Source of the DNA: a virus
Virus record (IMG/VR): IMGVR_UViG_3300021424_000117
Coordinates: 1 to 36,612 of that record
Reading direction: 5' to 3' (one strand)
DNA: 36,612 nucleotides
Every line of letters begins with the position of its first letter. The first letter of the stretch is position 1. The position numbers were made by a program, and so were the translations under genes. Below are positions 5,589 through 19,830 of this stretch, one piece after another. The notes beneath the pieces are model-generated. The model did no database searches. It had not been told where the DNA came from and worked only from the letters and a program-made list of their open reading frames with translations.

Positions 5589-5798
5589 ATGATTGAAAAT
5601 GCTCGTTTTATGACAAAGTATGTTAGAGATAAAAGAACTGCAGAATTGTTTGAACTTGATGATAGATCAGGCTACATTGTTAGGTTAATTGACAATAAAG
5701 TAATTAAAGAAGATAGAGTCATTAAAGGTAAGTCTGTCTATTATGTTGTTGATACCTGTGAAAATTGGTGTGAGGGAATTATTGATCCATGGATCTAA
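5589..5798 (+). CDS. Small protein of unknown function, translationally coupled to radical-SAM gene
   Basis: A 69-residue protein, not recognised. The middle (LFELDDRSGYIVRLIDNKVIKEDRVIKGKSVYYVV, read as beta strands) could be a small barrel; the C-terminus has two cysteines in TCENWCEGIIDPWI. Its last ten bases overlap the start of the radical-SAM gene, so the two are probably translated together. A peptide substrate or an accessory binding domain for the radical-SAM enzyme is possible but unproven. GAGGTG at 5578-5583 is the likely ribosome site. Confidence 0.6.
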   Translation: MIENARFMTKYVRDKRTAELFELDDRSGYIVRLIDNKVIKEDRVIKGKSVYYVVDTCENWCEGIIDPWI

Positions 5799-6811
5799 TA
5801 CCAGTTGTAATTGATGAAAATGGATTCAAGAGGCATCCTTTTTTTCAACATTTAGTTAGACTTGATTTTGATTTAACAGGTCTTTGCAATAGACAATGTT
5901 CTTTTTGTCCAAGAGCTTTAGATGCAGATCCTGTGTATCCAAATATCAACAAACAGATGTCCCTTGAAACCGTTGATATAGTAATAAAAGAACTATTATC
6001 AATTGATTTTAGGGGCTGGGTAGAACTTGCTGGAAGAGGGGAAAGTACTCTCCATAAAAAATTTGATGATATTGTGGATATGTTAACTGCTGCTCCAAGA
6101 AAATGGAAAGTTAGATTAACAACTAATGGTTACAAACTTGATGAGTGGTGGAATTCTTCCGTTGGTATGAAGCTTGATGAGCTTATATTGAATAGCTATG
6201 AGTCAAAGCAAGAGTATGATGAAAGAGTTCAAAAATATGTAACTCTACCAAGTGGAGGTAGGGTTTACCATTACTACAAGCAAGATGGTTATAGTATTGA
6301 CCAGATTAACAACATGCCGTCCTACAAAGAAGACGGTAAGAGTTGGAAACACGCTTTTAATAACAGAGCTGGGTATTTTAAAAATCAAGATAGAAGAAAT
6401 GATAATCTTGATTATACAAATGTTGTTAAGTTACCCAATGGCAAAAGTGTAAAAATAAGTGAGTCTCCATGTTGGCATCCAATGAGACAAATTTTTATTG
6501 ATTTTGACGGCAACTATCAAATGTGTTGTAATGATTGGTTGAGTCAAATTAAAATTGGCAATGTACATGAAAGACCATTAATGGACATGTATGTGAATGA
6601 TCCAAAAATTAATAGAATAAGATGGAAATTGATTAATAAGGATAGAACACAAATTCTACCATGTGCAAGATGTGATGATATTCAAGGAGCAACAACTCAA
6701 ACAAAAAATGTAATTGATAAGTTTAAGCAATCAAGGGTGTATAAAGAACATCTTATACCTTTAGCCAGGCTAGGTAGATCATTTGATGAAGGTTTAAAAC
6801 GAGGAATATAG
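5789..6811 (+). CDS. Radical SAM protein with SPASM-like C-terminal domain
   Basis: This 340-residue protein has the radical-SAM cluster motif LTGLCNRQCSFC (C33-x3-C37-x2-C40), which holds a 4Fe-4S cluster and cleaves S-adenosylmethionine. VELAGRGEST and LTTNGY are further fold signatures. The C-terminal region has cysteines in SPCWHPMRQIFIDFDGNYQMCCNDW and LPCARCDDIQG, typical of SPASM/twitch auxiliary-cluster domains used by peptide- and protein-modifying enzymes. Substrate unknown. It overlaps the small ORF upstream (10 bases) and the 2OG oxygenase downstream (TAGTG), forming a three-gene unit inserted between capsid and tail genes. The DNA is visibly more AT-rich than gp23, suggesting acquisition. 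Confidence 0.85.
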   Translation: MDLIPVVIDENGFKRHPFFQHLVRLDFDLTGLCNRQCSFCPRALDADPVYPNINKQMSLETVDIVIKELLSIDFRGWVELAGRGESTLHKKFDDIVDMLTAAPRKWKVRLTTNGYKLDEWWNSSVGMKLDELILNSYESKQEYDERVQKYVTLPSGGRVYHYYKQDGYSIDQINNMPSYKEDGKSWKHAFNNRAGYFKNQDRRNDNLDYTNVVKLPNGKSVKISESPCWHPMRQIFIDFDGNYQMCCNDWLSQIKIGNVHERPLMDMYVNDPKINRIRWKLINKDRTQILPCARCDDIQGATTQTKNVIDKFKQSRVYKEHLIPLARLGRSFDEGLKRGI

Positions 6812-7383
6812 TGTTAGTCAAACATACGTATCCGTGGCCACATTATACGGTTGATAACTTTTTACCAAAAGAAACATTTGATCTATTAGTAGAGCTACGC
6901 GATCACCCAAGTTTTAATTTTGTTGATTGTAATGAAAATGGAAGGGTGATAGTTAAGCCAACTAAAAACCTTCCATCAAAAAAAAATTTGTTAATTTCGT
7001 TAAGTAATCCTGAGATATCAAAAACAATTGAACAGAGTGTTAAAGATCATTTACAAGGTATACTTCCCGACAAATATTGTTGCATTCCTGATTTAATTAG
7101 ATGTGACCCTAATTATTATTATCATCCTCATGTGGACCATAAGGATAAATTATTTTCTATTGTAATATTTTTATACCCTCCTAAATCTGATGCTACTATA
7201 TTAATGGATAAGGGAGTGGATTATAAAGTTGAATGGAAACCAAATAGAGCTTTAATTATTAAAAATGAACCACATACAATGCATTATTACCATAACAAAA
7301 CCATTTATCCAAGACTTACAATGAATGTTTACATAACGTCTAAGCCTGGAGGGTTCAATGTTGCATTAAACCCTAGGGTTTAA
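6811..7383 (+). CDS. 2-oxoglutarate/Fe(II)-dependent oxygenase-like protein
   Basis: A 190-residue single-domain protein with double-stranded beta-helix features. H107-V-D109 in YYYHPHVDHKDKLFSIVIFLY forms the HxD motif; a distal H155 or H158 (EPHTMHYYH) and R168 (PRLTMNVYI) complete the 2OG/Fe site. Such enzymes hydroxylate protein side chains or bases; the substrate is unknown here. GTG start at 6811 overlaps the radical-SAM stop. It ends just before a late promoter and the tail-tube gene. Probably acts with the preceding two genes on the same substrate, by inference. Confidence 0.8.
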   Translation: MLVKHTYPWPHYTVDNFLPKETFDLLVELRDHPSFNFVDCNENGRVIVKPTKNLPSKKNLLISLSNPEISKTIEQSVKDHLQGILPDKYCCIPDLIRCDPNYYYHPHVDHKDKLFSIVIFLYPPKSDATILMDKGVDYKVEWKPNRALIIKNEPHTMHYYHNKTIYPRLTMNVYITSKPGGFNVALNPRV

Positions 7384-7403
7384 TCTTGCTACTTCTGATA
7401 CTT

Positions 7404-7415
7404 AATAAATAAATA
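7404..7415 (+). promoter_or_regulatory. Late-type promoter elements before tail-tube-fold gene
   Basis: Two overlapping AATAAATA octamers (7404-7411 and 7408-7415), one mismatch from TATAAATA, 20-30 bases before the ATG at 7435. Confidence 0.45.
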
Positions 7416-7434
7416 ATATAACGAGGATAATGCT

Positions 7435-7935
7435 ATGGCAATCCAAAAAAGTTTTTTATCACCACTAGGCTATCAACTGGCCATTAAGAAAATACCTAAC
7501 ACAATATTTAATTGTGTGTCAGTTAATATACCTGGTATCACTGTAGAGGATGCTGAACTTCAAACACCATTCAAGGTTGTCCGTTATCCAGATAAGGTAG
7601 TTTACAATGATTTTGTTGTTAGATTTAAGGTTGATGAAGATTTAACAAACTACATAGAAATTTTTGATTGGATGCATGAGATTGGTAGACCAGAACAATT
7701 CAGCTCTGGTAGTGCAAACCCTTTATTTCCTAATGACCTCTATAGTACCTATGCATCAGATGGTACACTCCTAATTCTTAACTCTGCTAACAAACCAAAT
7801 GTTGAAATTAGATTTAGAGATCTATTCCCGGTAGTACTTAGTGATATTGAATTTACATCACAAGAAACTGATGTTGCATATATTGATGCAACAGTAAGTT
7901 TCAGATGTTTGCTGTTTACTGTTCATGTCACATAG
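7435..7935 (+). CDS. Tail tube-fold protein (gp19/gp3-like)
   Basis: This 166-residue protein has the segment order of T4-like tail-tube-fold proteins: an N-terminal PLGYQLAIKKIPN strand, VNIPGITVEDAE, KVVYNDFVVRFKVDEDLTNYIEIFDWMHEIGRPE, then a C-terminal DIEFTSQETDVAYIDATVSFRC strand pair. In marine T4-like phages a gene at this site is often called gp3 (tail completion/sheath stabiliser); the fold is also that of the tube gp19. Which role it has cannot be settled by reading. A late-type promoter precedes it and the uvsY promoter lies in its 3' end. Confidence 0.7.
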   Translation: MAIQKSFLSPLGYQLAIKKIPNTIFNCVSVNIPGITVEDAELQTPFKVVRYPDKVVYNDFVVRFKVDEDLTNYIEIFDWMHEIGRPEQFSSGSANPLFPNDLYSTYASDGTLLILNSANKPNVEIRFRDLFPVVLSDIEFTSQETDVAYIDATVSFRCLLFTVHVT

Positions 7936-14600: not shown

Positions 14601-15521
14601 ATGCAAAAAGAATATCACTATTCTGAGATCTTCTATTCTGTTCAAGGTGAAGGTCGATACACTGGTATACCAACTGCTTGGTTAAGGTACTTTCTCTGTA
14701 ACCTTCAGTGTGATGGCTTTGGTCAGAAAGACCCAACCGACCCTAGGACATACAAGCTTCCTTATAAAGAAATGAATGTCGACTTCATTAAGCGAGTCGA
14801 GGATCTTCCTGTATGGAAGTATGGTTGTGACTCATCCTACTCTTGGGCAAAGAAGTTCAAGCATCTGATGCATAAAGGCACTCCTGAGTATATTGCTAAT
14901 CAGATTCTAGGTTCAATTAGAACTGAACATAATACAGAAGCAAGGTTTGATCATCCAGCAGGACAACCAATCCATATGTGTTTTACTGGTGGTGAGCCTC
15001 TAATGAAACATGCTCAGGATTGTACTGTTGGTATACTTGATTACTTTGATAAGATTAACAATAGTCCTAAGTTTGTTACATTTGAGACTAATGCCACTCA
15101 AGCATTGAAGCCAGAGTTTAGTAACTTCATGGCTAACTGGAGAGAGATGGGTAAAGAAATCTTTATTTCATCTTCTCCTAAGCTCTGGACAACATCAGGT
15201 GAAACCAACAAGGATGCAATTGTCCCAGAAGTGTTAGCCCAGTATCACTCTTTATCTAGAGGCAAAGGGCAGATTAAGTATGTCGTCAATGGTAAAAAAG
15301 AAACTTGGGAAGAGGTTGAGCACGTAACAAATGAATTTAGAAAAGTTGGTGTGACATTTCCTGTTTGGATTATGCCAGTTGGTGCTACAGAAGAGGGTCA
15401 AACTGGTGAGCTTGATGGGTATGTGAGTGCTGGTACAATTGCAGAAGAAGCCTTTAAGAGAGGCTATAATGTTTCAGCAAGAGTCCATGTATATTTGTGG
15501 GGTAATACAATTGGAGTCTAA
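14601..15521 (+). CDS. queE: 7-carboxy-7-deazaguanine synthase (QueE), with cluster-loop insertion
   Basis: A 306-residue radical-SAM enzyme. EIFYSVQGEGRYTGIPTAWLRYFLCNLQC is the QueE N-terminus, and FTGGEPLMKH is the GGE motif. QueE turns 6-carboxytetrahydropterin into 7-carboxy-7-deazaguanine (CDG), the first 7-deazapurine of the pathway. Unusually, the CxxxCxxC motif is split: C33-x3-C37, then about 38 extra residues, then C76 in YGCDSSYSW, which corresponds to the usual CDTxYAW. The protein is therefore longer than typical bacterial QueE. It heads an operon with QueD, FolE2 and a DpdA-like protein, so the product is probably destined for phage DNA. No queC is visible. Confidence 0.92.
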   Translation: MQKEYHYSEIFYSVQGEGRYTGIPTAWLRYFLCNLQCDGFGQKDPTDPRTYKLPYKEMNVDFIKRVEDLPVWKYGCDSSYSWAKKFKHLMHKGTPEYIANQILGSIRTEHNTEARFDHPAGQPIHMCFTGGEPLMKHAQDCTVGILDYFDKINNSPKFVTFETNATQALKPEFSNFMANWREMGKEIFISSSPKLWTTSGETNKDAIVPEVLAQYHSLSRGKGQIKYVVNGKKETWEEVEHVTNEFRKVGVTFPVWIMPVGATEEGQTGELDGYVSAGTIAEEAFKRGYNVSARVHVYLWGNTIGV

Positions 15522-16056
15522 CTTTAAACAAATTAACATATTAGATCTTGATGAGGTTGAATATCTTAAACAAATGTTTGATAAATATCCTAAAAACTTT
15601 TGGACAAGAGACTACAACTTGTTTAATCTTTATAAATGTAATATTCCTCGTCGTGTATATTCCAACGATGTTGATTCTATGAGAAGCATAACACAAAAAA
15701 TAAAATCCCATCTAGATTGCAAGGAAGATACAAATTATTATTTTTTAAAATACATCCCAAACTCCTTTACACAAATCCATGTCGATAACCCAAATAGGAT
15801 ACAAAAAACGGCTGTAACGCTAATTGATATATCTGAAGATTTAGTTGGAGGGGAGGTTGTATTAATTAGTGGCATATCTCAATCAGATTTGATGCCAGGA
15901 GAATTTCGTCCTAATAACAATTTTAAAGATATAAAAGTGCCAGTTGTTGTTCGACAAAAGGTTGGTTCAACACTGATTTATAACCATAATGTAAAACATG
16001 GTGTTACAAAAGTTGAGCAGGGTCATCGTTTAGTTTTTATTTCATGGTATAATTAA
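15511..16056 (+). CDS. 2-oxoglutarate/Fe(II)-dependent oxygenase-like protein in the 7-deazaguanine locus
   Basis: About 181 residues. H90 and D92 in FTQIHVDNPNR, GGEVVLISG, distal H163 in NHNVKHGVTKVEQ, and R173 in GHRLVFISWYN give the 2OG/Fe motif set. The start is uncertain: no ATG lies at a good site, and the TTG at 15511 with GTGGGG (15497-15502) upstream is chosen; in-frame GTG 15427 and ATGs 15469 and 15487 would deepen the overlap with queE. It looks more AT-rich than queE. Substrate unknown; acting on a modified base or on a protein are both possible. Confidence 0.75.
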   Translation: MESNFKQINILDLDEVEYLKQMFDKYPKNFWTRDYNLFNLYKCNIPRRVYSNDVDSMRSITQKIKSHLDCKEDTNYYFLKYIPNSFTQIHVDNPNRIQKTAVTLIDISEDLVGGEVVLISGISQSDLMPGEFRPNNNFKDIKVPVVVRQKVGSTLIYNHNVKHGVTKVEQGHRLVFISWYN

Positions 16057-16057
16057 T

Positions 16058-16528
16058 ATGAAAATAATTAAGTATAAAAAGAAACAGTTTAATCAGGACA
16101 TTGAAACACTAGTAGGAAAAATCAAGAAATCCAAAGTCGAGTTTAGTTATATTGTTGCTTTATCAAGAGGGGGTCTTATTCCTGGTGTTGTTCTCTCCCA
16201 TAAGCTAAAACTTAATCTTTGGCCAGTCTCTTGGTCTACAAGAGATAGTCAACAAAGAGAAACAAATACTTGGATTCCGGAAGATGTTAACGATGGTCAT
16301 AAGATTCTGGTTGTTGATGATATTGTTGATAGTGGTGCTTGTTTAACGTCGCTGTTTGAAGAATGGGATTCGTGTGTAGTAAATAAGATGAACCGCGAAA
16401 ATATTTACATTGCCACCTTGATTTATAACAAGGATCAGTGTATAGTGCCACAGTTTTATGCAAACAAGATTTCAAGAAAAAAAACTCCAGAATGGTTTGA
16501 GTTCTGGTGGGAGGATTCGAATGGCTAG
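16058..16528 (+). CDS. Phosphoribosyltransferase-like protein
   Basis: A 156-residue protein of type I phosphoribosyltransferase fold: VALSRGGLIPGVVLSHKL (residues 33-50) and the PRPP-binding loop ILVVDDIVDSGACL (about 83-96). Such enzymes join a base to PRPP or cleave nucleotides; XGPRT-like and ComF-like members have this look. The substrate base is unknown. Its placing between queE and queD suggests handling of a purine or deazapurine, but this is context only. It starts two bases after the oxygenase stop, and its end overlaps the queD start by eight bases. Confidence 0.83.
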   Translation: MKIIKYKKKQFNQDIETLVGKIKKSKVEFSYIVALSRGGLIPGVVLSHKLKLNLWPVSWSTRDSQQRETNTWIPEDVNDGHKILVVDDIVDSGACLTSLFEEWDSCVVNKMNRENIYIATLIYNKDQCIVPQFYANKISRKKTPEWFEFWWEDSNG

Positions 16529-16985
16529 TAATTTTTATTCTACAAAAAGGATTGGTCCCATATCTACTGGCCACCGTCAGTGGAGAGACAAAGGTCACTG
16601 TAGGTGGGCTCATGGGTATGGTCGCTATGTTAAGTTTACCTTTGCATGTACTACCCTAGATGATAAGATGTGGTGCATGGACTTTGGTGACCTGAAGTGG
16701 GTTAAGGGGTGGTTAGAGGAACAGTGGGACCATAGAATGCTCATCGCTTCTGATGACCCTTTGCTCCCTGAGTGGGAGAGACTCCACGCAATTGATGGTA
16801 TTAACCTTAATGTGATGGATGTATCAAAAGGACATGGTCCTGGTATTGAAGGGTCATGTAAATTTGTATTTGATAACATTAATCCAAAGATAAAAGAGTT
16901 GACTAACAACCGCGTTTGGATTGATACTATAGAGATCTACGAGCATGAGTTTAACTCTGCTCTTTATATTAACCCGGAGGTGTAA
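16521..16985 (+). CDS. queD: 6-carboxytetrahydropterin synthase (QueD)-like
   Basis: A 154-residue T-fold protein. STGHRQWRDKGHCRWAHGYGRYVKFTF holds H18, the catalytic-type C27 and H31; MDFGDLKWVKGWLEEQWDHRMLI matches the DFxxLK and LDHxxLN motifs; IEIYEHEFNSALY matches the C-terminal VxExxxxxAxY. QueD converts dihydroneopterin triphosphate to 6-carboxytetrahydropterin, substrate of QueE. Odd point: the standard zinc motif HGH reads H31-G-Y33 here, so one usual zinc ligand is replaced. Start at the ATG 16521 (GGGAGGA just upstream, 16509-16515). Confidence 0.88.
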   Translation: MASNFYSTKRIGPISTGHRQWRDKGHCRWAHGYGRYVKFTFACTTLDDKMWCMDFGDLKWVKGWLEEQWDHRMLIASDDPLLPEWERLHAIDGINLNVMDVSKGHGPGIEGSCKFVFDNINPKIKELTNNRVWIDTIEIYEHEFNSALYINPEV

Positions 16986-16987
16986 AG

Positions 16988-17935
16988 ATGGGTATTGATT
17001 ATTCCAGCAAGATGCCAGATCTTGTATTTAAATACGATGATAAATTTTATTGTGATGAATTGCCTGACCCTCAGGTAAATCCTGTTCTACCTGGTGCTAG
17101 AGTACCTCTTCGTAAGGTTGGTATTGCTCCAGTGGATCTTCCTATTATGGTCAAGCGTCGAGATGGCCATACTCAGCAGTTGCAGGCAGAAGCCAGTCTT
17201 TATTGCTCTTTAGATGACCCTAATTCTAAGGGACTGAATCTTTCAAGACTCTATCTCCTTATGCATAATAAAATCAAAGACCATCTTTCGATTGATGGTA
17301 TCCAAGGAGCACTGAAGGAGCTTGCGGAGCAGCAGAATAGTAAGAATGCTTACTGTAAGCTTCGCTTTAAGTATCCTTGGACCCAGGATGCTCTTCGCTC
17401 TCGTAGAGATGATAATCCTGAAGAGAAGCTCAGAGGCCATATTGCCTATAAGATCGAATTAGAAGGTCAATATAGAAGTGGTCAGTGTAAGTTCTTCTTG
17501 ACTGTTGATTATGTCTATAGCTCAACCTGCCCCTGTTCGTTTGAGCTAGCGTATGATGCTCGCACTCATAGACAAGCTGCTGCTAATGCTCATAGTCAGA
17601 GATCTATTCTAAAAGTTAAGGTTGAGTTTGATCCCGAGAGGATTATTTGGTTTGAAGATGTTATTGAACTTTGTAGAAAGCATATTCCAACTGAAGTTCA
17701 GATTGTTGTTAAAAGACGAGATGAACAAGCATTTGCTGAATTGAATGGTGCCAACCTGTTGTTCTCTGAAGACGTTTGCCGTATTATGTACGCTGCGTTA
17801 GACGAATGGTATAACAAGGGTCGTATTAAAGACTTCTCTCTAGCCGTATCGCACGAAGAGAGTCTACATCCTTGGAATGCTATTGCCGTTACTTCTAAGT
17901 TCAATCCTAGTGAGGTTCCTGGGTGTCTGGTTTAA
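16988..17935 (+). CDS. folE2: GTP cyclohydrolase I type 2 (FolE2)
   Basis: A 315-residue protein of the FolE2 (GTP cyclohydrolase IB) family. DPQVNPVLPGARVPLRKVGI and LPIMVKRRDGHTQQLQAEASLYCSL are N-terminal hallmarks, GLNLSRLYLLM fits the GxxMSR segment, and YSSTCPCSFELAYDARTHRQAAANAHSQRS (read C181-P-C183 through AHSQRS) is the metal-site region. It makes dihydroneopterin triphosphate from GTP, feeding QueD then QueE. It follows queD by two bases and its end overlaps a GIY-YIG gene. Carriage by the phage means flux into the pathway need not depend on host FolE. Confidence 0.9.
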   Translation: MGIDYSSKMPDLVFKYDDKFYCDELPDPQVNPVLPGARVPLRKVGIAPVDLPIMVKRRDGHTQQLQAEASLYCSLDDPNSKGLNLSRLYLLMHNKIKDHLSIDGIQGALKELAEQQNSKNAYCKLRFKYPWTQDALRSRRDDNPEEKLRGHIAYKIELEGQYRSGQCKFFLTVDYVYSSTCPCSFELAYDARTHRQAAANAHSQRSILKVKVEFDPERIIWFEDVIELCRKHIPTEVQIVVKRRDEQAFAELNGANLLFSEDVCRIMYAALDEWYNKGRIKDFSLAVSHEESLHPWNAIAVTSKFNPSEVPGCLV

Positions 17936-18309
17936 AAGATGCATATAGTTATCGGTATAGAGGCGTTTATGGTGTCTATAACGATGCGTGTGAATTGATG
18001 TATGTTGGTTCCACTTCTTTAGGTCTAAAGAACCTTGAAGAGAACCATAGAAAGGCAAGAGAGAAAGGTTACGACATGACTAACTTTAGGACATTGCTTG
18101 AAGAGCATCAGTCTTGGAAGTTTGTATGGCTAATCAAGCCACGAAACTGCCAGCAGCCTCACATTGAGTTTGCTGAACAGACTCTCATCCAAGCGATGAA
18201 ACCTAAGCATAATATTGACAAGACTCCATATAAGTCGTCAATTTATTATGACCGATATGCTGATGTCCTGCAGCTATATGGTGAAGAGTTGGAGTATTTG
18301 AATGATTAA
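17923..18309 (+). CDS. GIY-YIG domain protein
   Basis: A 128-residue protein with the GIY-YIG nuclease signature YRGVYGVYNDACELMYVGST (GVY near 17-19, YVG 27-29), followed by a basic stretch ENHRKAREKG with the expected arginine and a later glutamate in HIEFAEQTLIQAMKPKHNI. It has no separate DNA-recognition domain, so it could be a small stand-alone nuclease, a degenerate homing enzyme, or have another role. GTG start at 17923 overlaps the end of folE2 by 13 bases and its stop overlaps the next ATG, so it is embedded in the operon rather than inserted as a free-standing intron enzyme. Confidence 0.78.
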   Translation: MSGLKDAYSYRYRGVYGVYNDACELMYVGSTSLGLKNLEENHRKAREKGYDMTNFRTLLEEHQSWKFVWLIKPRNCQQPHIEFAEQTLIQAMKPKHNIDKTPYKSSIYYDRYADVLQLYGEELEYLND

Positions 18310-18691
18310 GAAAAAGATTTGGGTGACGTTCCAAAAGGAAGGCATCCATTGCTATCCAGCTGCAGCAACAGACGAAAAGCTAAAAGATGTTGCATTCCTA
18401 GCTAACCCACATAGACATATGTTCCACTTTAAGGTTTACCTTGAAGTGTTTCACGATGATAGAGATGTGGAGTTCATTCTCTTGAAGAGAGAACTTGAGG
18501 CCCTATATGGTAATGGAACATTAAAGCTTGACTTCATGTCTTGTGAAATGATTGCAGAAGAACTTCTTACATACCTGAAAAATCAGTATCCAGGAAGAGA
18601 TGTTACAATTATTGTTAGCGAAGATAATGAGAATGGGTGTGAGCTTGTATATGAGCGATACATTCCTGTTCAATCTATGAAGGATGAATAA
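18302..18691 (+). CDS. Divergent PTPS/T-fold-like protein next to the DpdA-like gene
   Basis: A 129-residue protein. Its motif order resembles 6-pyruvoyltetrahydropterin synthase/QueD: IHCYPAA (H15), HRHMFHFKV (H37, H39, H42) in place of the HGH strand, RDVEFILLKRELE in place of DFxxLK, SCEMIAEELLTYL in place of PTxExxA, and VTIIVSEDNENGCELVYE in place of VxExxxxxAxY. This is a reading of spacing, not a database result. A second T-fold protein beside a transglycosylase could be a late-step enzyme or a partner subunit. It overlaps the GIY-YIG stop by eight bases. Confidence 0.55.
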   Translation: MIKKKIWVTFQKEGIHCYPAAATDEKLKDVAFLANPHRHMFHFKVYLEVFHDDRDVEFILLKRELEALYGNGTLKLDFMSCEMIAEELLTYLKNQYPGRDVTIIVSEDNENGCELVYERYIPVQSMKDE

Positions 18692-18692
18692 T

Positions 18693-19544
18693 ATGACAGA
18701 GTTTTGCCACATTGCTCCTATTGACTTTCTTGACCTTGTTAAGGGTAGAAGTCATCACTTAACCCTAGCGCATCTTGTTGACACGAGCAATGAGTATACT
18801 GAGTTCTATAGGAACCAGACTTGCGTTAACATCATGGACAATAGTGCCTTTGAGATGTATAAGCAAAGCAAGCCAATGCTAACACCTGCCAAAGTTTTAG
18901 AGATGGCAAGTATTATTAGAGCCAATTATGTTGTCATGTCAGACTATCCAGGTGAGCATTCATCAAAGACTATCCAGGCAGCAATTGACCTAGCACCTCT
19001 CTTTAGAGCGCAAGGGTTTGGTACATTCTTTGTACCTCAGTCGAAGGTTGGAGATAAGGAAGATTTAATTAGTGCTTTTGATTGGGCTTCAACATCCAAG
19101 CATGTAGACTATATTGGTGTGTCTATCCTTGGTGTTCCTAATGCATATGGTGTAGAGAAAGGTAACAAACTTCAACGATTTGTTGCTCGTTTCATGTTCA
19201 TGCAAGAGTTATATGACCGTGGCATCCTTCAACGTATCCGAAACAACAAAAAGAAGATCCACTTCTTAGGTATGGTCGATGGTCCAAATGAAATTAAGTT
19301 GATGGAGCCATATAGAGATTATATTGACACTTGGGATAGTAGTGCTGCTATTTGGTTAGGGTTGAATGGTGGAACATTTGATGGAAGTCCAACTGGTATC
19401 TTTGATGGTAAGTTTGAGAAGGAAGTGGACTTTGATCTCAAGCAAGCTGATACACCAATTGACTTTTACCGTATGGCAAAGTATAATATGGATTACATTG
19501 ATACAATTGTAACCAAATATTTAAATGATGATCCGGGGTATTGA
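18693..19544 (+). CDS. dpdA: DpdA/TGT-like transglycosylase, putative 7-deazaguanine DNA insertase
   Basis: About 283 residues with tRNA-guanine-transglycosylase barrel motifs: IMDNSAFE (D49), VVMSDYPG (D84), TFFVPQ, DYIGVSILGVP, IHFLGMVDGPNEI (190-201) and DTWDSSAAIWLGL (D212, D215). It is shorter than tRNA TGTs and lacks an obvious C-terminal zinc C-x-C site, as in the phage/bacterial DpdA branch that swaps guanine for a deazaguanine in DNA. With FolE2, QueD and QueE just upstream it would complete a DNA-modification pathway. The ATG at 18693 is chosen over 18684 because AAGGA (18680-18684) is better spaced. Substrate (CDG or a later derivative) is unknown. Confidence 0.8.
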   Translation: MTEFCHIAPIDFLDLVKGRSHHLTLAHLVDTSNEYTEFYRNQTCVNIMDNSAFEMYKQSKPMLTPAKVLEMASIIRANYVVMSDYPGEHSSKTIQAAIDLAPLFRAQGFGTFFVPQSKVGDKEDLISAFDWASTSKHVDYIGVSILGVPNAYGVEKGNKLQRFVARFMFMQELYDRGILQRIRNNKKKIHFLGMVDGPNEIKLMEPYRDYIDTWDSSAAIWLGLNGGTFDGSPTGIFDGKFEKEVDFDLKQADTPIDFYRMAKYNMDYIDTIVTKYLNDDPGY

Positions 19545-19545
19545 T

Positions 19546-19830
19546 ATGGCAGAAGTGAAATATAGATTTAGAGAAGATAAGGTCTTGATTGAGGCCTTAA
19601 AGTATGTTAATGGAACTTATCAACAGCATTATGTTGGTAAGGAAGAAGTCCAGACAATTGATGTTTGGAATTCATTAGGTAGTGTTGATACTACAGCAAG
19701 GGATACTGCTATTAAGTATCTAATGAGATATGGTAAGAAGGATGGATACAATAAAAAGGATTTGCTCAAGGCAATTCACTATATTGTTCTACTCTATCAC
19801 TTCACACAACCTCAGGAAGACAAGGTATGA
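19546..19830 (+). CDS. DUF3310-family protein (predicted nucleotide-related)
   Basis: A 94-residue protein with the DUF3310 pattern: VQTIDVWNSLGSV, then DTAIKYLMRYGKKDGYNKKDLLKAIHYIVLL. This small helical domain is common in phages and sometimes annotated as a nucleotide kinase without firm proof. It starts at the ATG 19546, with GGGG just upstream, immediately after the DpdA-like stop; its stop overlaps the next start. It may be co-transcribed with the modification locus. Confidence 0.8.
   Translation: MAEVKYRFREDKVLIEALKYVNGTYQQHYVGKEEVQTIDVWNSLGSVDTTARDTAIKYLMRYGKKDGYNKKDLLKAIHYIVLLYHFTQPQEDKV

Follow-up and report, generated by a model that had tools for sequence, protein, structure and literature searches.

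The virus record IMGVR_UViG_3300021424_000117, analyzed here over its whole stretch of 36,612 nt (36.6 kb, possibly a fragment, hereafter the window), raises the question of how a phage operon that carries most of a 7-deazaguanine pathway could reach a base for its DNA when QueC is missing. The operon, located at 14601-19830, co-encodes a GTP cyclohydrolase, QueD and QueE, identified by domain and profile matches, together with a T-fold protein of 129 amino acids (aa) and a short protein of 286 aa resembling tRNA-guanine transglycosylases (TGT). We consider it very probable that this operon serves phage 7-deazaguanine DNA modification. The best explanation for the whole, to which we assign a probability of about 0.6, is the QueC-less synthesis and insertion of a 7-deazaguanine base. 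Within this reading the T-fold protein quite likely acts on 7-carboxy-7-deazaguanine (CDG) in place of QueC, and 7-deazaguanine (DG) is, with somewhat less assurance, the expected product.

The operon genes all lie on the + strand, most of them overlapping or separated by gaps of a few bases, in the following order:

14601-15521, + strand: QueE-like radical SAM enzyme (CDG synthase); phrog_2076, 2e-49; cluster cysteines C33, C37, C76.
15427-16056, start perhaps 15487, + strand: 2-oxoglutarate (2OG)-Fe(II) oxygenase-like protein; phrog_61, 2e-7.
16058-16528, + strand: phosphoribosyltransferase (PRTase) with the phosphoribosyl pyrophosphate loop VVDDIVDSG; PF00156, 2.2e-9.
16521-16985, + strand: QueD (6-carboxytetrahydropterin (CPH4) synthase) with a C-x3-HG motif (CRWAHG); PF01242, 5.2e-18.
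16988-17935, + strand: FolE2 (type IB GTP cyclohydrolase); PF02649, 2.5e-59; NCBIfam NF010200 above cut-off.
17923-18309, + strand: GIY-YIG-like protein (weak); PF01541, 0.0044, under the Pfam cut-off.
18302-18691, + strand: T-fold protein, 129 aa, apparent QueD paralogue lacking the catalytic Cys; AlphaFold2 model, Foldseek and invariant residues.
18684-19544, + strand: short TGT-fold protein, 286 aa, putative DNA guanine transglycosylase (DpdA-like); AlphaFold2 model and structural matches.
19525-19830, start perhaps 19546, + strand: DUF3310 protein; PF11753, 5.5e-8.

A first-pass annotation made from the sequence had described an operon of FolE2, QueD, QueE and a TGT-like protein, and both the domain matches and the TGT fold of 18684-19544 confirmed it; the positions given for the open reading frames (ORFs) also agreed with our ORF check. 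QueD itself was correctly identified (PF01242), while its start, given as 16458, is probably at 16521, where an ATG follows GGGAGG. As the identical gene order was found in further contigs, including a 188-kb relative (G005), the arrangement of the operon is not a chance one.

The absence of QueC from the window, already reported by the first-pass annotation, was borne out by a search with PF06508 (SGGxDS motif and zinc cysteines), which returned no match either in the window or in G005, whose FolE2 and TGT are 94% and 87% identical to those of the window. Since the window is possibly a fragment, this absence alone proves little, and relatives were needed. The sample consisted of 20 records with the T-fold protein, namely 12 named phages and 8 long IMG/VR contigs, G005 included. 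PF06508 matched four times in these records, twice over the cut-off, and inspection of all four matches left no standard QueC in the sample; two were assigned by eye to NAD-synthetase-like ORFs and one to another PP-loop protein, and were rejected as QueC. QueD or the related 6-pyruvoyltetrahydropterin synthase (PTPS) was present in 19 of the 20 records (18 over cut-off); of 16 records searched for QueE, 15 had it. As controls, 16 QueE phages lacking the T-fold protein were picked by hand, and PF06508 exceeded its cut-off in all of them, the match in NCTB being partial; the T-fold profile gave no match in these 16 phages apart from a partial one of 13.8 bits in Stenotrophomonas phage Moby, whose QueC shows both SGGLDS and CxxCxxC. 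Phage KVP40 carries a second PF06508 match besides its true QueC. With Mycobacterium phage Bipper added, the other QueE records numbered 17, and their comparison with 15 T-fold records gave a Fisher p value of 5.7e-8, which is descriptive, the records being related and the controls hand-picked. The T-fold protein and QueC would thus seem to exclude each other. The first-pass annotation had also allowed for preQ0 (7-cyano-7-deazaguanine) made with a host QueC, and this is not favoured, as standard QueC occurs in 0/20 T-fold records versus a match in 16/17 of the other QueE phages.

A putative natural swap of the two genes can be read from Moby and Acidovorax phage ACP17. Moby shows the order FolE, two other genes, QueC, TGT, QueE, a small gene and helicase, and ACP17 the order FolE, a small gene, TGT, a glycosyltransferase-like gene, T-fold, QueE and helicase. 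ACP17 was described as the sole clear close relative of Moby's genus, yet noticeably distant (PMC9025141).

The 129-aa protein belongs to phrog_17812, a family of unknown function, and showed no Pfam or NCBIfam domain match. Its AlphaFold2 model (pLDDT 89.9) displayed the order strand-strand-helix-helix-strand-strand. When the model was submitted to Foldseek, E. coli QueD (4ntk) was returned first with an E value of 5.7e-5 and QueD and PTPS structures filled the top ranks; a second structural comparison was again led by PTPS (Z 12.2) and QueD (Z 11.6). On this modelled structure the membership in the T-fold superfamily is firm, and the kinship with QueD was drawn from the Foldseek rank and the motifs. 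Residues H16, H37, H39 and E107 are invariant in two alignments of the family (50/50 and 12/12 rows), and the position of the QueD catalytic cysteine, four residues before HxH, is occupied by Leu33 in all rows of both (50/50 and 12/12). The protein therefore looks, as modelled, like a QueD paralogue that has kept the zinc histidines and lost the catalytic Cys, and E107 would by analogy be the base-binding glutamate. The first-pass annotation had counted two T-fold proteins among the extra genes of a variant pathway; the second fold, at 18302-18691, is supported by the model, the other one being QueD itself. Through the exclusion of QueC, the phrog_17812 family would be tied to one metabolic step.

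The 286-aa protein gave no match in Pfam and NCBIfam searches, its sole PHROG match being phrog_20335 (function unknown). A profile built from four proteins of the DpdA type (KVP40, CAjan, ACP17 and X1) matched neither this protein nor the 523-aa TGT of related loci, even at E 10, and a sequence-profile search of the PDB with the alignment of the TGT-like protein returned noise, mostly kelch proteins. The TGT fold was thus recognised from the structure model, after the sequence profile had failed. The AlphaFold2 model, built from an alignment of 39 sequences, reached a pLDDT of 92.3 and a pTM of 0.90, and all 50 PDB matches listed for it were tRNA-guanine transglycosylases, with a best Foldseek E value of 1.5e-8; the best VIA comparison, with the archaeosine TGT 1iq8, had a Z of 19.8 over 249 residues. 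Sequence identity to the structural TGT matches listed was 11-17%. Residues D52, D87, Q119, G145, G196 and D218 are invariant in 39/39 rows and in 7/7 rows of a wider set. We take D52 and D218 to be the two TGT catalytic aspartates, from the order of the motifs and the Zymomonas mobilis TGT numbering. The first-pass annotation had named loss of these aspartates in its 18693 product as the finding that would speak against a transglycosylase; the TGT fold and the invariant positions were found instead. From the model we infer that the protein swaps guanine in phage DNA, its predicted substrate. As far as sequence goes, the short TGT is a subfamily without previous annotation. It is fused to DUF3310 in Rhizobium phage RHph_I1_18 (locus L003, 11077-12345), and DUF3310 is present in 62/66 groups with the short TGT, so that DUF3310 may help the short TGT.

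A motif scan of IMG/VR returned at least 595 relatives of the T-fold protein, and the gene neighbourhoods of the best 80 were analyzed, many of these loci ending at contig edges. FolE occurred in 47 of them, FolE2 in 9, QueD in 31, QueE in 30 and the PRTase in 25. The 523-aa TGT with its DSGGFQ motif was encoded in 57 loci and the short TGT in 20, with both in none and neither in 3; since the two never occur together, the short TGT appears to fill the place of the inserter. A pooled set of 172 loci was then reduced to 125 non-redundant groups, 120 of which contain the T-fold protein and 117 the T-fold protein with some TGT. FolE was found in 67 groups and FolE2 in 26, one of the two in 93 and both in none. 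QueC was found in 0/125 groups with a profile built from two phage QueC seeds, which is less sensitive than PF06508.

Taken together, these data suggest a pathway in which FolE2 would open GTP, QueD would form CPH4 and QueE would convert it into CDG, all three steps being assigned by homology. Since the T-fold protein goes with the loss of QueC, CDG is suggested to be processed further, most simply by decarboxylation; the T-fold protein would then turn CDG into DG, a metal-dependent decarboxylase being the simplest option. The short TGT would exchange guanine in phage DNA for DG, and the modified phage DNA would resist host restriction as in phage CAjan, whose 7-deazaguanine DNA is reported to protect against restriction (PMC6884629).

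Several observations weigh against this reading. We infer the enzymatic steps in this phage from sequence. In the structural comparison of the T-fold model, dihydroneopterin aldolases score level with QueD and PTPS (Z 11.3), urate oxidase follows at Z 10.6, and the best PDB match of the 129-aa sequence profile is PTPS at an E value of 0.24. The hhalign alignment of the short with the longer TGT, which places the motifs in register (MDNSAFE/GDSGGFQ and WDSS/FDCA), is formally insignificant, with a probability of 0.5%. Vibrio phage D479 (locus L187, 408-1214), one of the 20 T-fold records, contains a divergent QueC-like ORF over the cut-off, with SGIDS versus SGGxDS. Bipper lacks QueC and the T-fold protein alike, which refutes the rule that every QueC-less phage carries the latter. 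The decarboxylase proposed for CDG nucleotide in tubercidin biosynthesis is of the UbiD type rather than a T-fold enzyme (PMC6112128).

The chief rival is the reading of the first-pass annotation, with CDG itself as the inserted base; the T-fold protein would then serve to bind or deliver CDG, or would have a different substrate. It is consistent with the absence of QueC from the window and from the T-fold records, and CDG was raised for QueC-less Bipper by Hutinet et al. 2019 (PMC6884629); Bipper fits this explanation, though without the T-fold protein. Standard QueC in 0/15 QueE-bearing T-fold records versus a match in 16/17 chosen others suggests a step after CDG, and we consider the rival unlikely, though the strongest of those weighed. 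Bipper gp4 (locus L214, 2047-2472), a protein of 141 aa and of unknown function encoded between TGT and QueD, could be another QueC substitute.

The T-fold protein might otherwise be a non-homologous replacement of QueC that makes 7-amido-7-deazaguanine (ADG) or preQ0, or it might tailor the base after insertion. T-fold enzymes do act on preQ0, as QueF and QueF-like proteins show, and the QueF-like structures 5jyx and 5k0p were among the structural matches of the model. However, the top Foldseek match is QueD, an ATP site would not be expected in a 129-aa QueD-like fold, and the QueC reaction requires ATP (PMC13329287); this alternative appears improbable.

Equally improbable is a nucleotide route, in which the PRTase would make the CDG ribonucleotide, the T-fold protein would decarboxylate it and the resulting deoxynucleoside triphosphate would enter DNA, leaving the TGT-like protein with a different role. 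The precedent is TubE, a proven CDG-PRTase in tubercidin biosynthesis (PMC6112128), and the PRTase recurs in 43/125 groups and among QueE phages of four lineages; yet a TGT-family protein accompanies the T-fold protein in 117/120 groups versus 43/125 for the PRTase, in a set where contig ends truncate many loci, and the catalytic residues of the TGT are fixed. An operon serving host tRNA queuosine or folate rather than phage DNA is very improbable, since it encodes a TGT-family protein and queuosine requires QueC, of which the 20 T-fold records hold no standard copy, unless the host supplies it, even if Hutinet et al. 2019 suggested that phages lacking DpdA raise the level of tRNA queuosine (PMC6884629).

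Compared with known systems, the DpdA phages CAjan, 9g and Rosebush likewise encode a GTP cyclohydrolase, QueD, QueE and a TGT-family inserter (Hutinet et al. 2019, PMC6884629), whereas the operon of the window lacks QueC, has FolE2 for FolE, and adds the T-fold protein and the PRTase. Cellulophaga phage phiST and ACP17 share with it QueD, QueE, the same T-fold family and the lack of a PF06508 match; both encode FolE where the window has FolE2. In phiST a relative 23% identical to the short TGT is present, and a PRTase is encoded elsewhere; the TGT of ACP17 is a long one, and this phage also has a glycosyltransferase-like gene. The window protein shares the fold and the catalytic positions of tRNA-guanine transglycosylases (1iq8, Z. 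mobilis TGT) and differs in having just 286 aa. Phages are reportedly able to carry the deoxynucleosides of DG and CDG (dDG and dCDG), and a predicted CDG decarboxylase, DpdL, and DpdA3/4 are reported to be described in a 2023 study by Cui et al.; dCDG in phages would suit the CDG reading, and the chemistry predicted for DpdL is the one proposed here for 18302-18691. The tubercidin cluster tubA-I offers a further parallel with QueD, QueE, a GTP cyclohydrolase, a PRTase, no QueC among the listed genes and loss of the CDG carboxyl group; it differs in its proposed UbiD-type decarboxylase TubF and in its product, a nucleoside antibiotic (PMC6112128).

Phage 7-deazaguanine DNA and its protection from restriction are already known (PMC6884629). 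Work of 2015 had pointed out far-T4 contigs that combine Que genes with a GTP cyclohydrolase and a PRT, and had interpreted these as queuosine genes (PMC4360716). What is apparently new is the replacement of FolE by FolE2, the minimal TGT linked to DUF3310 and the recurrent PRTase; among the papers listed on a PRTase with a transglycosylase and on FolE2 in phages, this combination was not found. Such a system may help the phage to escape bacterial defences that cut DNA, through a route that has received less study. DG has no group at position 7, and its presence would show whether escape from restriction needs a bulky substituent or the loss of N7 alone.

The PRTase has xanthine PRTase as its closest NCBIfam model, at 51.5 bits versus a cut-off of 138. 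Fifteen phage records matched it, and 12 of these also had QueE matches and came from four lineages (Synechococcus BUCT-ZZ01, the Cellulophaga phiST group, Flavobacterium immuto and Brevundimonas); the remaining three were one unannotated faecal record and two short fragments. PF00156 was detected in 9/20 T-fold records, one under the cut-off, versus 1/8 controls, the first 8 only being counted. In G005 the match spans one TAA, and that copy may be shorter. The PRTase was rejected as a mark of QueC-less phages, since it is also found in the QueC-bearing immuto and Brevundimonas phages, and it thus tracks the 7-deazaguanine pathway rather than the loss of QueC. We propose that it is a recycler of displaced guanine or a CDG-PRTase. 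In the former case, guanine freed by each TGT exchange would return through the PRTase to GMP and GTP and feed FolE2, closing a loop. If so, this would explain how the phage affords a wholesale exchange of genomic bases, and nearly all G in phage DNA could be replaced. The full combination, a widespread QueC-less branch with a cofactor-free CDG-decarboxylating QueD paralogue, a minimal TGT linked or fused to DUF3310 and a guanine-recapturing PRTase, is a tentative picture that we hold to be doubtful as a whole.

As for the other extra genes, the in-operon 2OG gene occurs in 8/125 groups and the GIY-YIG gene, with a match of 17.7 versus the Pfam cut-off of 22.6, in 17/125. Both were set aside as pathway parts and regarded as lineage-specific; judged by this distribution, the 2OG gene at 15427-16056 is lineage-specific, and the GIY-YIG-like protein is probably either accessory or a homing-type nuclease. 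Of the genes that the first-pass annotation had counted towards a variant pathway, the GIY-YIG gene and this second 2OG gene are probably not core.

FolE2 scored 227.2 bits with its NCBIfam equivalog (cut-off 215) and occupies the position held by FolE in the gene orders of many relatives. Among 50,697 phage records a single FolE2 match was found at 1e-3, a 6.7-kb faecal fragment with 23% identity, and 24 FolE2 loci were found in IMG/VR by a search reaching close relatives only. QueE matched 107 of the 50,697 phage records at 1e-5; with the curated NCBIfam QueE models, which represent bacterial QueE, it reached at best 27.7 bits (cut-off 300). Its third cluster Cys is moved by an insertion, so that C33 and C37 are followed by C76 (GCDSSYS). 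The same spacing was observed in QueE of Ahp1, BUCT-ZZ01, PA5oct and X1, and not in that of ACP17, Phosso and phiST, ACP17 and Phosso having the usual C-x3-C-x2-C. A PADLOC run on five proteins gave no match.

The window is, by its gene content, a T4-like phage record, with scaffold, major head protein, DNA helicase, late sigma factor, clamp and clamp loader genes, and in addition an SbcC/SbcD-like (gp46/gp47) nuclease, a DNA polymerase and a UvsX-like protein. The closest phage polymerases among the matches listed are those of T4-like Synechococcus phages, at no more than 49% identity. The operon sits between gp46 and a dCTP deaminase/dUTPase-like gene and is preceded by another 2OG oxygenase gene. 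A radical SAM protein (phrog_21308, 8.5e-8) is encoded at 5789-6808, adjoining the major head protein gene.

In the IMG/VR neighbourhoods, a glycosyltransferase-like gene was found in 54/57 loci with the 523-aa TGT and in none with the short TGT (e.g., L034, L050, L053); the former loci (n=57) also contained a NAD-dependent epimerase in 23 cases and a DegT aminotransferase in 24. The glycosyltransferase-like gene adjoins the T-fold gene in BUCT-ZZ01, Phosso, PA5oct and ACP17 and lies near it in X1, and a sugar hypermodification of 7-deazaguanine is possible.

Finally, a GTDB scan detected the T-fold protein in 20 loci, several of them viral-looking by gene content. In one Amycolatopsis it precedes QueD, QueE and FolE, with a portal gene nearby, and is probably part of a prophage. 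Bacterial contigs of Magnetospirillum and a relative (L222-L226) carry the T-fold gene and, directly after it, a gene distantly related to the long TGT and one that is QueD-like. In Streptomyces sp. NEAU-Y11 (L230/L231, about 5974-7639), the T-fold, QueD and FolE genes are found near FAD-binding and glyoxalase genes, and this locus perhaps makes a 7-deazapurine natural product.

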